Positions 11,186 through 54,321 of a DNA stretch of 64,000 nucleotides are shown piece after piece (the first letter of the stretch is position 1; each line of letters starts with the position of its first letter). A model generated the notes under the pieces. That model ran no database searches. It saw only the letters and a list, made by a program, of their open reading frames with translations, and was not told where the DNA came from. Made by a program: the position numbers and the translations under genes. The stretch is from the NCBI GenBank assembly GCA_026398815.1, contig JAPLSA010000017.1, positions 558,001 to 622,000 on the forward strand. The letters run 5' to 3'. The stretch comes from Gammaproteobacteria bacterium. Lineage in GTDB: Bacteria; Pseudomonadota; Gammaproteobacteria; Nevskiales; Nevskiaceae.

Positions 11186-12250
11186 CTAGGCCGCCCGCCG
11201 GTCGGCGGCGCACAGGTTCAGCAGTTCGGCGGCGATGTTGTCGAGCTTGATCGCCCGGTCGGCCGCGCCCATCTTGAAAGCCGCGCCGGGCATGCCCCAG
11301 ACCACGCTGGACGCCTCGTCCTGGACGATCGTGTGAGCGCCGACCTTGAGCATCTCCAGCAGGCCGCGGGCGCCGTCGTCGCCCATGCCGGTCAGGATGC
11401 AGCCGACCGCGTTGGCGCCAGCGAAGCGCGCGACCGACTTGAACAGCACGTCGACGCTCGGCCGGTGGCGGTTTTCCGGCGGCGCGTCGGTCAGCCGGGT
11501 GACATAGCGGGCGCCGCTGCGGGTGATTTCCAGATGACGGTCGCCCGGCGCGATGTAGACGTGGCCGGGCACGATCTGCTGGCCATCGCGCGCTTCGCAG
11601 ACCGCCATCGCCGACGAGCGATCCATGCGCAGCGCGAACGGCCCGGAGAACATCGCCGGAATGTGCTGGGTGATGACGATCGCCGGCGCATCGGCCGGCA
11701 TCCGCTCCAGCACTTCCTTGATCGCCTCGGTGCCGCCGGTCGAGGCGCCGATCGCGATCAGGCGCTCGGTGGTGCGGTAGCGGTTGCCGACCGAGGCCAG
11801 CGGCCCTTTCGGTGCCGGCTTCGGGAACGGCGGCGGCCGGACATGGCTGCGGGCTGCCGACTTCACCTTGGCGATCAGGTCGGCGGTGTAGCTGCGCATG
11901 CCGGCGGCGAGATCGATCTTCGGCTTGGTGACGAAATCCACGGCGCCGAGTTCCATCGCCTGCAGCGTCACTTCGGCGCCCTTCTCGGTCAGCGACGACA
12001 CCATCACCACCGGCATCGGCCGCAGCCGCATCAGGTTCTCGAGAAAAGTCAGGCCATCCATCTTCGGCATCTCGACGTCGAGCGTCAGCACGTCGGGGTT
12101 CAGGGCCTTGATCAGGTCGCGGGCGACGAAGGGATCGGGCGCCGCGCCGACCACTTCGAGTTCGCGGTCGCTCGACATGATTTCGGTCAGCAGCTGCCGC
12201 ATCAGTGCGGAGTCGTCGACGATCAGGACCTTGATGATCTTGTTGGGCAT
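11186..12250 (-). CDS. cheB: Chemotaxis protein-glutamate methylesterase CheB
   Basis: This 354-residue protein has an N-terminal receiver domain ([11 protein letters not shown], phospho-acceptor in [15 protein letters not shown] switch lysine) and a C-terminal methylesterase domain with the Ser-His-Asp set in IGASTGG, ITQHIP and [10 protein letters not shown]. It removes methyl groups from receptors once phosphorylated by CheA. Its ATG overlaps the cheD stop (ATGA), so cheR-cheD-cheB is one coupled unit. The length is standard. Confidence 0.96.
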
Positions 12251-12870
12251 CAGAAAAGCTCCACGGAGCCAGCGGTGGGAGATTCGGCGAGCTTGTGCCG
12301 GTACAGGCTTTCGCTGGCCAGAACCTCGGTGTCATTGGCCGACGGCAGGCGCTTGACCTGCGCGCGGCCTGTCAGCGGGAAGTAGTGCACGCGTCTCGGG
12401 CAGGTGTCGTACAAGTCCTGTGCCGCGACGGAAAGTCCTTCGGTGGCCAGATAGCGCAGCACGAACTGGCCGTTGCGCTTGCCGACATTCGAATGCGTGA
12501 AGCCGGCCAGCACCGCGCCGCCGCCGAACACCTTGCATTCCAGCCGGCTGCGCGCCGCGCCGCGCTTGAGCAGTTCGTTGATCAGCATTTCCATCGCGTA
12601 GGAGCCGTAGCGCGCGCTTTCGTTGGCGGCGCCGCCGTTCTCCAGGTCCGGCAGCATGAAGTGGTTCATGCCGCCGACGCCGGCCAGCGGATCGCGGATG
12701 CAGGCGCTGACGCAGGAGCCGAGCACGGTCACCAGCATCACGTCGCGATCGGTGACGATGTACTCGCCCGGCAGCACCTTCATTGCATGGGCGTTGAATT
12801 TCGGATCGAAGTAGGTGGTCGGCGCCGCGATCTTCTGCACCTTGTCGCGCACCTGGCGCATCTCGTACAT
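12250..12870 (-). CDS. cheD: Chemoreceptor glutamine deamidase CheD
   Basis: This 206-residue protein deamidates receptor glutamines to make methylation sites. The catalytic Cys and His lie in [14 protein letters not shown] and GGMNHFMLP, and the [20 protein letters not shown] helix is typical. The ATG at 12870 gives [11 protein letters not shown]. Longer readings in this frame run through cheR and are not coding. The protein extends beyond the conserved domain by a tail ending [10 protein letters not shown], and the last four residues match the end of the receptor at 9784-11052. The gene starts five bases after the cheR stop and overlaps cheB. Confidence 0.95.
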
Positions 12871-12875
12871 GGCGT

Positions 12876-13745
12876 TCAGCCCCGGGGCGGCGTGCGGCGA
12901 TACACGGTGCGGCCGATCGAGGTGACGATGTCGGTCGCATGGAAAAAGCTTTCCGAATGGCCGGCGAAGAACAGGCCGTCGGGGCTGAGCAGCGGCGCCA
13001 TCTTCAGCAGGATGTCGCGCTGCGTGGGCTTGTCGAAATAGATCATCACGTTGCGGCAGAACAGCGCATCGAACGGCCCCTTCATCGGGTAGCGCGCATC
13101 GAGCAGGTTCAGCGGCCGGAAGGTGATCAGCTCGCGCAGCTCGTCGATCACCCGGACCTTGCCGGCGTTGATGCCGCTGCCGCGCCGGAAGTAGCGGCGC
13201 TTGCGGGCCTCGTCGAGCTTCTCGACCCGCTCCTCGGGATAGATCCCGGCGGCGGCGGTTTCCAGCACGTTGGTGTCGATGTCGGTGGCCAGGATCTTCA
13301 CCGGCGGCGTCAGGGAGTCGTAGACCTCGCAGGCGGTGATCGCCAGCGAATACGGCTCCTCGCCGGTACTGGCCGCCGAGCACCAGATCTTCGCCGGCGT
13401 GTGGCGCCCCTTGCCGGCCAGGAATTCCCGCAGGATCTCGAAGTGGTGCGCCTCGCGGAAGAACGAGGTCAGGTTGGTGGTCAACGCATTGGTGAACGCC
13501 TGCCATTCCTCGTCGCTGCCGCGCGCTTCGAGCTGGTCGAGATAGTCCTTGAACGACACCAGGTTCAGCGCCCGCAGGCGCCGCCCGAGCCGGCTGTAGA
13601 CCATGTCGCGCTTGGTTTCCGACAGCGCGATGCCGGCGCGGCCGTGGATCAGCTGGCGCACGCGATCGAAATCGCGCGCGGTGAAGGTGAAATCGCGATC
13701 GTCGGCCACGATCTGCTCGTCTGTCACGGCGGCGGCTCGGCTCAT
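12876..13745 (-). CDS. cheR: Chemoreceptor methyltransferase CheR
   Basis: This 289-residue SAM-dependent methyltransferase modifies receptor glutamates. The N-terminal all-helical domain contains FDRVRQLIHGRAGIALSETK. The SAM site is WCSAASTGEEPYSLA, and FCRNVMIYFDKPTQ is near the C terminus. The start at 13745 (MSRAAAVTDEQ) leaves a five-base gap after the receptor fragment upstream. A second ATG at 13766 is possible but would overlap that gene. Four receptor-like proteins in this window carry a C-terminal WTEF pentapeptide of the kind that docks CheR. Confidence 0.95.
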   Translation of the reverse strand: MSRAAAVTDEQIVADDRDFTFTARDFDRVRQLIHGRAGIALSETKRDMVYSRLGRRLRALNLVSFKDYLDQLEARGSDEEWQAFTNALTTNLTSFFREAHHFEILREFLAGKGRHTPAKIWCSAASTGEEPYSLAITACEVYDSLTPPVKILATDIDTNVLETAAAGIYPEERVEKLDEARKRRYFRRGSGINAGKVRVIDELRELITFRPLNLLDARYPMKGPFDALFCRNVMIYFDKPTQRDILLKMAPLLSPDGLFFAGHSESFFHATDIVTSIGRTVYRRTPPRG

Positions 13746-13750
13746 GGGCG

Positions 13751-14167
13751 TCAGAACTCGGTCCACTGCTCGCCGCTGCCGCTGGCCCGCTTGACCGCCG
13801 GCGCCGACGCGCTGGCAGCGGCGCGCCGTACCGGCAGCTTGGTGCGGCCCAGCGGACGGATGCCCGGCGCGGCAGCCGGCGACAGCGCCGGAGTTCTGGC
13901 GTCGGCCGGCGGCCCGCTGTCATTGGCGCTGACCCGGAAGCTGGCGACTGAGGCACTGAGTCCCTCAGCCTGCGATTCCAGCGAACGGGCCGCCGCCGAG
14001 GCTTCCTCGACCAAGGCCGCGTTCTGCTGGGTCACCTCATCCATCTGGGTGATGGTCAGGTTGACCTGCTCGATGCCCTGGCTCTGCTCCTGCGAGGCCG
14101 CCGAGATCTCGGCCATGATGTCGGTGACCCGCTTCACGCTGGTGAACAGCGAATCGAGAAGCTTCAT
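13751..14167 (-). CDS. Free-standing chemoreceptor C-terminal fragment (mini-MCP) with WTEF tail
   Basis: This 138-residue protein is only the C-terminal methylation helix of a receptor: [39 protein letters not shown], then a Pro/Ala linker and the terminal EQWTEF. It has no membrane segment, no PAS domain and no signalling hairpin tip. About 55 of its first 60 residues match the end of the receptor encoded just upstream (14367-16256), and a DNA run of about 60 bases is identical, so it arose by partial duplication. It nevertheless starts with its own ATG (MKLLDSLFTSVK), lies behind a terminator (14296-14344) and a sigma-54 promoter (14229-14244), and is the first gene ahead of cheR-cheD-cheB. 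It could be a CheR/CheB docking helper or methylation sink, or an inert remnant that only carries the promoter. Confidence 0.7.
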   Translation of the reverse strand: MKLLDSLFTSVKRVTDIMAEISAASQEQSQGIEQVNLTITQMDEVTQQNAALVEEASAAARSLESQAEGLSASVASFRVSANDSGPPADARTPALSPAAAPGIRPLGRTKLPVRRAAASASAPAVKRASGSGEQWTEF

Positions 14168-14228
14168 GGCAAGTTCCGGATGAACGTGGATCGACGGTCG
14201 GGAGCGGCGGGCGCGCGCCAACGCCCGT

Positions 14229-14244
14229 TGCAAGTCCGGTTCCC
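14229..14244 (-). promoter_or_regulatory. Sigma-54 promoter for mini-MCP-cheR-cheD-cheB
   Basis: The minus strand reads GGGAACCGGACTTGCA. The -24 GG and -12 GC are 12 bases apart, matching TGGCAC-N5-TTGCA. The predicted start is near 14218, about 50 bases before the ATG at 14167 and after the terminator of the upstream receptor gene. Confidence 0.75.
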
Positions 14245-14295
14245 GGCAGCCGATGCCGGATTTCCGGCGCCGGCAGCCGGTCTTTGCATCGCGCA

Positions 14296-14344
14296 AGGAA
14301 AGAGGCCCCGCGACCCGACGCCGGAAGGCGCGGATCGCGAGGCC
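14296..14344 (-). terminator. Terminator after the PAS-PAS chemoreceptor gene
   Basis: On the minus strand, a 13-bp stem (14332-14344 with 14304-14316, two G-U pairs) with a 15-base loop is followed by TCTTTCC. It begins 23 bases after the receptor stop codon. The T tract is interrupted, so termination may be partial. Confidence 0.6.
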
Positions 14345-14366
14345 CGGATGGCCCTGCGGCGCTGGA

Positions 14367-16256
14367 TCAGAACTCGGTCCAGGTGTCGGTCGCAGCGGCC
14401 GCGCGGCCACCGGTCGCCGATGCCGGCCGGCGCAGCGGCGCTGCCGGTGCCGCACGGCCGCGTGCCACGGCCGGCTTGGCAGTGACGGCCGGCGCACGGC
14501 GGCTGGCAGCCGCCGCGCCACTGCTGGCGCTGGCACTGGCCGCCGATTCGGCGACCGTGAACGAGGACACCGCAGCCGCCAGGCTGCGCGCCTGGTCTTC
14601 CATCGAACGGGCCGCCGCTGAGGCTTCCTCGACCAGCGCCGCGTTCTGCTGAGTGACCTGATCCATCTGGGTGATCGCCTGGTTGACCTGGTCGATGCCG
14701 GTCGACTGCTCCTGCGAGGCCGCCGAGATCTCGGCCATGATGTCGGTGACCCGCTTCACGCTGGTCACCACTTCGTCCATGGTCTTGCCGGCCTGCTCGA
14801 CCAGCCGCGCGCCGACATCGACCTTCTCGACCGAATCGCCGATTAGGGTCTTGATCTCCTTGGCCGCCGAGGCCGAGCGTTGCGCCAAGCTGCGCACTTC
14901 CGCCGCCACCACCGCGAAACCCCGGCCCTGCTCGCCGGCGCGGGCCGCTTCCACGGCGGCATTCAGCGCCAGGATATTGGTCTGGAAAGCGATGCCATCG
15001 ATGACGCTGATGATGTCGACGATCTTGCGCGAGGAGTCGTTGATCGCCGACATCGTCGACACCACCTGGCCAACCACCTGCCCGCCCTTGATCGCGACGT
15101 CCGAGGCGCCCAGTGCCAGCTGGTTTGCCTGGCGGGCGTTCTCGGCGTTCTGCTTGACGGTGGAGGTCAGCTCTTCCATCGAGCTGGCGGTTTCTTCGAG
15201 CGAAGCGGCCTGCTGCTCGGTACGCGCCGAAAGGTCGCTGTTGCCGGTGGCGATCTCGCGCGCCGCCGTATTGATGGTTTCGGTGGACACCTGGATCTGG
15301 CCGACCACGGCGGCCATGGTGTCGACCAGCACATTGACGCCACTGCACAGGTCGCGGATCGCGCCGCTCATGCCGTCGAGCGTGATGCGCTGCATCAGGT
15401 TGCCGTCGCGGGCCGCCCCCACCACCTGCTGGGTCTGCGCCACGGCACGCTCCAGCGCCTGCTGCTGCAGCACCTGGGCGGTGATGTCGCTGGCGTACTT
15501 GACGACCTTGAACGGCTTGCCGTTCATGTCGAGGATCGGGTTGTAGCTGGCCTGGATCCAGACTTCGCGGCCGCCCTTGCCGATGCGCTTGTACTGGCGC
15601 ATGTCGTACTCGCCGCGACCGAGCTTTTCCCAGAACGCCTTGTACTCCTGCGAATCGCGGTAGCCGGGCTCGACGAACATCGAGTGATGGCGGCCACGCA
15701 CCTCGTCCAGCGTGTAGCCGAGGGTGTTGAGGAAGTTGTCGTTGGCGGTCAGCACGGTGCCGTCGAGCTTGAATTCGATGACCGCCTGCGATTTCAGGAT
15801 CGCGGCCAGCTGGCCGTCGCTGTCGGCGGTCTTCAGCCGCAGCGCGGTGATGTCGGTGGCGTAGATCGCGACCTTGGCGACCTGGCCGTCGACCACCACC
15901 GGGTTGTAGTTGGCCTGCAGCCACAGTTCGCCGCCGCTGCCGCTGCGGAAGCGGAACTGGCCGGCCAGCGGCTCGCCGTGCAGCAGCTTGTCCCAGCCGT
16001 CGCGCAGCTCGCGGGATGCCGGGTCGTCGGCGCCGATCAGCACGTGGTGCGGCTGGCCGCGCAGCGCCTCCAGCGGCCGGCCGATCAGGTTGGTGAAGTT
16101 GTCGTTGGCGGTGACGATCACGCCCCGCGCATCGAGTTCCAGATAGGCGCGCAGCCGGCCAATCGCGTACAGCTGGGCGCGCGCCAGCTTCAGCTCCTTG
16201 GCATCGGCCGAGGCAGCGCCGCCGAGCAGCTTCGACAACAGCGTGCCGGCGCTCAC
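14367..16256 (-). CDS. Cytoplasmic chemoreceptor with two PAS domains (Aer-like)
   Basis: This 629-residue methyl-accepting protein has no membrane segment. Two PAS domains occupy about residues 30-145 and 150-270 ([20 protein letters not shown] and [20 protein letters not shown]), each followed by a PAC-like DIT motif. A HAMP-like linker and the signalling domain follow, with [20 protein letters not shown] at the hairpin tip near residue 430. The tail is Ala/Pro-rich and ends DTWTEF, a CheR-docking pentapeptide. The PAS domains suggest redox or energy sensing, but no flavin-binding residues can be assigned by eye. The start is GTG ([13 protein letters not shown]). A possible 32-codon leader frame (16253-16351) overlaps it as GTGA but has no other support. 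Confidence 0.9.
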
Positions 16257-52842: not shown

Positions 52843-54321
52843 TCAGCCTGCCATTCTGACGGCAACCCGCGCCGCGTTGAGCTTGCGTTCCTTGGCCGGT
52901 GCAATTTTCATGGCTTCACGGTACTTGGCGATCGTCCGGCGGGCGATCCGCACCCCGTTGCGGGCCAGGATCGCGGCGATCGCGCCGTCGCAGAGCGGCG
53001 CACTGGCCTTCTCGCCGTCGACGATGCGGCGAATCATCGCCCGCACCGCGATGCCCGAGGTGTCGGCCTCGGTGCCCTGGATCTGGCTCGGGAAGAACGC
53101 CTTCATCGGGTACACGCCCCAGGGCGTGGCGACGAACTTGCTGGAGGTGACGCGGCAGACCGTGGATTCGTGCATGGCGATCGCATCGGCGACTTCGCGC
53201 AGGGTCAGCGGCAGCATGCCTTCCTCGCCGCGCTTCAGGAATTCGCGCTGCCGCTCGAACACCACGCGGGCGGTCTTGAGCAGGGTCTCGTGGCGCATTT
53301 CCAGGCCGCGCACCAGCCAGCGCGCCTGCTGCAGCTGGTCCTTCATGCCTTTGTGGCTGGCGGCGTTGGCGCTCATCATCCGTTCGTACTGGCCGTTGAT
53401 GCGCAGCTTCGGCAGGTTCACCGGGTTCAGCTCGACCTTCCAGGCGCCGGCGACGCCGCTGACGAGCAGGTCCGGCACCACGGCCTGGGCCGGCTCGATG
53501 CGCGAGGCGCCCGGCTTCGGATCGAGCGTGCGGATCAGCTCCATCGCCGCGATCAGCTTCGCCTCGGTGGCGCCCAGTTCGCTGCGCAGGTTGACGAAAT
53601 CGCGAGCGGCAACGCGCTCCAGATGCTCGGCGACCAGCGTTTCCGCGAGGTTCTTGCCCGGCGTGCCGGCCTTCACGGCTTCCAGCTGCAGCAGCAGGCA
53701 TTCGCGTAGATCGCGGGCCGCGAAGCCGGTCGGCTCCACACTCTGCACGGTGCGCAGGGCCGCTTCGAGTTCGGCCATCGACACCTGCCACTCCGCCGGC
53801 AGCTGGCCGAGGAGGGCATCCAGCGAGATTTCCAGGTAGCCGTTGTCGTCGACCACTTCGATGATCGCCACCGCCAGCTGCCATTCGCGCTGCGAGGTGA
53901 TCACCAGTTCCAGCTGTTCGAGCGCGGCGACCCGGGCGTCCTCGATCGGAGCGGCGGAGCGGCGCGCTTCCAGCGGCTCGCCATCCTCGCCCGGCTCGCC
54001 GCCGGACCAGGCTTCGGCGCTCGACCAGTCGTAGTCAGCATCGACCCGCTCGATGGCCGCTTCGTCGCAGCCGGACACCGGGGCTTCGGTGGAGTCCGCA
54101 GCCTGCGGCGTGGGGTCGGCCAGCTGCGGCGACGGCGCTTCGGCGCCGGCCGAAGTCGGGAGCGCCGATTCGTCGCGCTCCAGCAGCACATTGCCTTCCA
54201 GGGCGGACTCGACTTCCTGCTCCAGCTCGATCGCCGACAGCTGGAGAAGTCGAATGGATTGAAGCAGTTGCGGCGTCAGTGCGACGTTCTGCGACACACC
54301 CATCCGCGTCGTTGCTTTCAT
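52843..54321 (-). CDS. rpoN: RNA polymerase sigma-54 factor RpoN, flagellar-cluster copy
   Basis: This 492-residue sigma-54 has the Gln/Leu-rich activator-contact region I (MGVSQNVALTPQLLQSIRLL), an acidic region II (about residues 60-130), the core-binding region, the -12-binding helix-turn-helix (LTLREVADAIAMHESTVCRV) and the RpoN box GVRIARRTIAKYREAMKIAP near the C terminus. The ATG at 54321 follows GGGGAG; the longer frame to 54441 is unsupported. The usual rpoN neighbours (lptB, hpf, ptsN) are absent and it is next to fleQ, which suggests a flagellum-dedicated paralogue. Confidence 0.95.
   Translation of the reverse strand: MKATTRMGVSQNVALTPQLLQSIRLLQLSAIELEQEVESALEGNVLLERDESALPTSAGAEAPSPQLADPTPQAADSTEAPVSGCDEAAIERVDADYDWSSAEAWSGGEPGEDGEPLEARRSAAPIEDARVAALEQLELVITSQREWQLAVAIIEVVDDNGYLEISLDALLGQLPAEWQVSMAELEAALRTVQSVEPTGFAARDLRECLLLQLEAVKAGTPGKNLAETLVAEHLERVAARDFVNLRSELGATEAKLIAAMELIRTLDPKPGASRIEPAQAVVPDLLVSGVAGAWKVELNPVNLPKLRINGQYERMMSANAASHKGMKDQLQQARWLVRGLEMRHETLLKTARVVFERQREFLKRGEEGMLPLTLREVADAIAMHESTVCRVTSSKFVATPWGVYPMKAFFPSQIQGTEADTSGIAVRAMIRRIVDGEKASAPLCDGAIAAILARNGVRIARRTIAKYREAMKIAPAKERKLNAARVAVRMAG

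Follow-up and report, generated by a model that had tools for sequence, protein, structure and literature searches.

We analyzed a window of 64,000 nucleotides (nt), meaning the whole stretch of DNA of which the first lines are shown above (contig JAPLSA010000017.1, forward-strand positions 558,001 to 622,000), from a Nevskiaceae genome (GCA_026398815.1; assembly of 4.30 Mb in 32 contigs, 95.6% complete). On its minus strand, a 138-codon open reading frame (ORF) stands directly ahead of the adaptation genes cheR, cheD and cheB. A sequence-only reading had seen in this ORF a free-standing chemoreceptor methylation helix, duplicated from a neighboring receptor and equipped with its own promoter. 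Comparison with related genomes (cited by numbers such as G016) suggests another origin. The short gene very likely arose when most of the interior of a multi-PAS chemoreceptor gene, the one that precedes cheR-cheD-cheB in this genus, was deleted in frame. The features on which the argument turns are these:

13751..14167, minus strand: the 138-codon ORF, very likely the first 8 plus the last ~130 codons of a multi-PAS chemoreceptor
14144..14167, minus strand: receptor start MKLLDSLF, apparently retained in the short ORF, with matching N-termini in G002, G016, G009 and G014
14141..14145, minus strand: putative deletion junction, where TCACC is common to the left flank in G016 and the right flank in G010; presumably a single event
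13943..14143, minus strand: second methylation helix, about residues 9-75 of the short protein
13754..13768, minus strand: C-terminal QWTEF tail, which fits the xZxxZ rule as worded in the available part of PMC7390727
14229..14245, minus strand: sigma-54-like element CGGGAACCGGACTTGCA, 17 nt, conserved in relatives and apparently the receptor's promoter element

Translation of the window places the ATG of the short ORF at 14167 and its TGA at 13753-13751. A longer ORF starting from an upstream GTG (13751-14536) was rejected, as the ATG at 14167 aligns with the starts of full receptors. The only Pfam match of the short protein is to positions 130-172 of 172 in MCPsignal (PF00015), at 31.4 bits and thus below the cut-off of 34.6; no sensor domain and no further Pfam domain was seen at E up to 0.001, and the protein lacks a complete PF00015 signaling domain with its hairpin tip. 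Residues 6-85 align to positions 442-521 of NF011622, which marks them as the C-terminal methylation helix. Residue E491 of Tar is a methylation site. A structure model predicts a single helix spanning residues 2-75, with per-residue confidence (predicted local distance difference test) below 50 from residue 89 onward. ORF, Pfam and model thus agree with the sequence-only reading that the 138-residue protein keeps only the last methylation helix and the WTEF tail, with neither sensor nor signaling tip. It was also right that this ORF leads the adaptation genes: 5 nt separate its stop from cheR, after which come cheD and cheB.

To see what occupies this position elsewhere, we searched for cheR in 41 genomes (the source genome and 40 relatives) and examined its surroundings in 13 relatives (12, plus G009). 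Twelve relatives of the same genus carry this cheR, while the other five members of the genus gave weak or no matches. A receptor frame of at least 369 codons lies ahead of cheR in 11 of these 12; in the remaining one, G008, the contig begins there. In all 13 relatives examined, the nearest receptor gene before cheR is a long stop-to-stop frame, of 1542 codons in G016, 1397 in G009 and G002, 1078 in G015, 1029 in G023, 981 in G007, 959 in G018, 951 in G024, 856 in G014, 789 in G011 and 672 in G017; two frames leave their contigs, after at least 717 codons in G013 and at least 369 in G010. An open-frame listing gave 816 codons for the frame before cheR in G001. The cheR-proximal receptor is a multi-PAS protein in G016 (1479 residues, nine PAS matches) and in G002 and G009 (1348 residues each). 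Tandem PAS arrays are long in receptors of this genus and vary in length between species; locus L036 of G016 has the nine PAS matches just given, and at locus L037 of G014 the stop-to-stop receptor frame reaches 2235 codons.

Both ends of the short protein resemble this receptor. The N-termini of the full-length proteins (MKLLDSLFSRSADRKRI in G002, MKFLDALLTRAADRNRI in G016, MKFLDSLFSRSADRKRI in G009 and MKRLDALFNRTANRNRS in the multi-PAS receptor of G014) begin with MKLLDSLF, MKFLDALL, MKFLDSLF and MKRLDALF, respectively, compared with MKLLDSLF in the short protein; the multi-PAS receptor of G007 (MTFLASLFPRRAARQQ) matches less well. From residue 9 onward, identity to the cheR-proximal receptor is 82% for G010, 79% for G016, 75% for G007, 69% for G014 and G002 and 68% for G009, versus 59% for the neighboring receptor MCP-A. 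In the fast-evolving linker, RTPALSPAAA and ASGSGEQWTEF are common to the short protein and G010 and are not found in MCP-A. Nonsynonymous divergence (dN) of the helix is 0.012 relative to G010 and 0.194 relative to MCP-A. The short gene thus matches a full-length orthologue at both ends, in its upstream element and in its position, and the PAS domains, first methylation helix and signaling tip of the multi-PAS receptors of Nevskia-type genomes are all missing from it. As its start, its upstream element and its C-terminal linker all match one and the same receptor, we consider an internal deletion very likely. Probably in a single event, codon 8 would have been fused to the beginning of the last helix, and every PAS domain would have been lost together with the first methylation helix and the signaling tip. 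The loss would amount to ~1,210 codons, in frame, with G002 or G009 as the model and ~1,341 with G016. Since TCACC occurs in both flanks, a microhomology-driven deletion is plausible. No copy of the PAS array was found elsewhere in the source genome, where the best match, MCP-A, reached 54%; at 95.6% completeness this absence is not absolute. 'A simple remnant', which the sequence-only reading had offered as its alternative, fits best: the short gene probably represents a commonplace leftover, not a novel type of free-standing regulator.

The upstream element tells the same story. Sigma-54 promoters follow the rule GG-N10-GC. The site at 14229-14244 has three mismatches to the sigma-54 consensus, and the window contains no excess of such matches (93, with 127 expected by chance). 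Agreement with the consensus is insufficient by itself, and we accepted the site because it is conserved in relatives. The comparison took in every relative in which the multi-PAS start was read (G016, G002, G009, G007 and G014). CGGGAACCGGACTTGCA is present there without mismatch in G016, with one mismatch each in G002, G009 and G007 and with two in G014, 61-113 nt ahead of the start codon; in each of the five, none of 20000 base shuffles gave an equally good match. A relaxed pattern, CGGGAACYGGNNTTGCA, occurs seven times in 6 of 18 genus genomes, six times before the same receptor gene (once in each of the six genomes) and once elsewhere (G007:C25), and its reversed control not at all. It is missing from the other 12 of the 18, among them G010, whose contig starts inside the receptor. 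The source genome has two rpoN-type sigma-54 genes (PF04552), at 52882-53346 of the window (minus strand) and at G000:C28:15574-16041. With the GG-N10-GC pattern, conservation and a sigma-54 gene in the genome, the site is a predicted promoter. The short ORF does therefore have the ATG and, as a prediction, the sigma-54 promoter once described as its own, with the element conserved in five of five relatives, but by this comparison the element belongs to the receptor and was inherited by the short gene.

The neighboring features are as follows:

14303..14345 (approximate), minus strand: stem-loop between MCP-A and the element, a possible terminator with a weak U-tract
14367..16256, minus strand: MCP-A, the neighboring receptor, with two PAS matches and a full signaling domain; almost certainly not the source of the short ORF
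12876..13745, minus strand: cheR, starting 5 nt past the stop of the short ORF
12250..12870, minus strand: cheD, 206 residues
11186..12250, minus strand: cheB, 354 residues

The stem-loop upstream of the short ORF is strong (z = -4.0), in keeping with the earlier claim that a terminator sets the ORF off. As a terminator it is less convincing, given its weak U-tract and a terminator scan that flagged only a 5-pair version (1 found versus 0.2 expected). The same scan of the corresponding gap found a clear intrinsic terminator of 13 pairs in G016 and none in G014. Promoter and stem-loop would both be inherited surroundings of the receptor gene, and so are no sign of a purpose-built mini-gene.

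Several observations weigh against a simple internal deletion of one receptor gene. As in a protein that is kept, the reading frame is uninterrupted, the element has not changed, and only 2 nonsynonymous versus 17 synonymous changes separate the helix from that of G010. G007 and G014 have a second receptor between the multi-PAS receptor and cheR, so the deletion possibly ran across two receptor genes. The gap from receptor stop to cheR is 10 nt in G002 and G009 and 200-460 nt in most other relatives measured, so close coupling to cheR is not the rule. Finally, in several relatives a contig breaks off inside these receptors, one relative has an N gap there (L079, G057:C9), and the source assembly is itself incomplete and split into 32 contigs.

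This last point bears on a quite unlikely explanation, assembly error, in which the cell has the full receptor and the repetitive PAS array and core were lost during assembly. The contig ends and the N gap show that the region is hard to assemble, and tandem PAS arrays and similar receptor cores invite such a mistake. Yet the junction is seamless, free of N and in frame, the ~5 nt common to its two sides are too short for the usual overlap join, and no leftover contig with the PAS array was found in the source assembly.

We think it very unlikely that the short protein is a functional free-standing docking helix, made together with CheR and CheB and recruiting or buffering them. In its favor, the frame and promoter element are intact, the methylation helix and the xZxxZ tail are both kept, and the CheR of the window is near that of Salmonella, whose structure was solved with NWETF. 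The pattern of change in the helix can also be read this way, although the 17 synonymous and 2 nonsynonymous differences from G010 involve few sites and have too low a power to separate a kept protein from a young remnant, and most of this divergence may predate the deletion. In simulations of neutral drift, so few changes with no stop were left in ~4% of cases at 0.04 substitutions per site and in 0.4% at 0.06, so drift beyond ~0.04 is unlikely to have produced such a sequence. Such simulations leave two options, a young remnant or one held by constraint, which a single genome does not separate. Against a docking role, the helix hardly varies among seven orthologues, yet two of its positions (Q to L and G to S, few sites again) are changed in the window alone; counted likewise, unique changes number one in G014 and none in G010, G016 or G007 (these counts leave aside G002 and G009). 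Moreover, the protein has neither tip nor partner helix, three further receptors of the cluster also end in WTEF, and every retained feature is inherited from the receptor. That the deletion created a helix and tail that selection now keeps as a soluble sink for CheR and CheB, expressed along with cheRDB and buffering adaptation while these enzymes are produced, is likewise very unlikely. None of the present comparisons supports a role as recruiter or buffer of CheR and CheB.

A docking role also suffers from the short form being present in one genome only. The sequence-only reading had proposed looking in relatives for a conserved short frame before cheR. We surveyed 58 genomes of the family, 45 of which had a match at E up to 1e-12. 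Apart from that of the window, the survey turned up 10 frames shorter than 400 codons. Nine of these touch a contig edge (one each in G010, G057:C28 and G068 and two each in G021, G045 and G008), and the tenth, in G057:C9, is the receptor before cheR that sits behind the N gap. Contig-edge status was judged from coordinates relative to contig ends, and only G057:C9 was read base by base. A frame of 422 codons in G048 likewise reaches its contig end. Away from contig edges and N gaps, the 58 genomes gave just one short frame, that of the window.

The weakest alternative, that the ORF was copied from the end of MCP-A, is almost certainly wrong and was rejected because, for all the similarity of its helix (general across these receptors), its linker, start codons and upstream element match another receptor, to which identity and helix dN are also closer.

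If the short gene is a deletion remnant, the sigma-54-type promoter of the receptor presumably still drives its transcription, and translation presumably follows. A receptor signals through a hairpin that contacts CheA and CheW at its tip. With neither tip nor partner helix, a lone second helix is therefore expected to give no receptor signaling. The remnant could instead act as a translated leader, its stop 5 nt before cheR sustaining translation of the adaptation genes and sparing them polarity. We regard this, at roughly even chances, as the likeliest remaining effect; unless the remnant is young, it would be kept because ending so close to cheR keeps cheRDB translated. Such tight coupling is native in only part of the genus (G002 and G009). 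CheR binding through QWTEF is possible from the sequence of the tail, and would be incidental, given that WTEF is likewise the C-terminus of the cluster's three other receptors.

Among known systems, a precedent is Campylobacter tlp25, a chemoreceptor gene that has undergone a very large internal deletion and that its authors expect to be non-functional (PMC6433261). There tlp25 lost most of its 5' half, whereas the short gene lost nearly all but its two ends and its frame stayed open. The xZxxZ pentapeptide rule is taken from PMC7390727, in which CheR is reported to bind NWETF at about 2 µM. Receptors with C-terminal pentapeptides, as described in the accessible portions of PMC7390727 and PMC7698151, share the xZxxZ tail on a linker with the short protein, and the CheR of the window resembles that of Salmonella; those receptors are full-length, and the portions seen mention no free-standing tail protein. 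Among the matches listed from the open-licence PMC literature, titles and abstract beginnings revealed no free-standing tail protein, and titles there nothing on Nevskia chemotaxis; the Campylobacter paper was the single match there for a chemoreceptor pseudogene with an internal deletion. On the deletion reading, a natural in-frame receptor deletion would account for a puzzling mini-gene, and one supposed 'free-standing adaptation helix' would drop out as spurious. If the protein is made and does bind CheR, the strain would provide a natural test of a sensorless, tipless docking helix in adaptation.

The cheR gene was named from an NCBIfam match of 331.6 bits, below the model cut-off of 435. 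The alignment of its product with Salmonella CheR has a single 2-residue gap near query residue 110 and is gap-free from there on, which is no more than suggestive of tail binding. The closest cheR matches in named records are mostly metagenome-derived Nevskia sp., with some labeled Lysobacteraceae or Gammaproteobacteria bacterium. A tree of CheR plus CheB pairs the window genome with G010 (support 75; adjacent nodes 48-50).

Several relatives have a small ORF of ~60-82 codons between the receptor stop and cheR (L041, L036, L037, L040 and L043). It is absent from the window (gap of 5 nt) and, with their 10-nt gaps, from G002 and G009. This ORF would encode a small protein of the che operon. 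G007 has a small ORF at this position without the common core; the core is alike in the others, reading LPLFAVWGLGFGAAEG in G010 and G016, LPVFAVWGLGLSTAD in G014, RGFARWGLGLSAAECIEHLD in G015 and RLLANWGLSLSEAGCV in G023.
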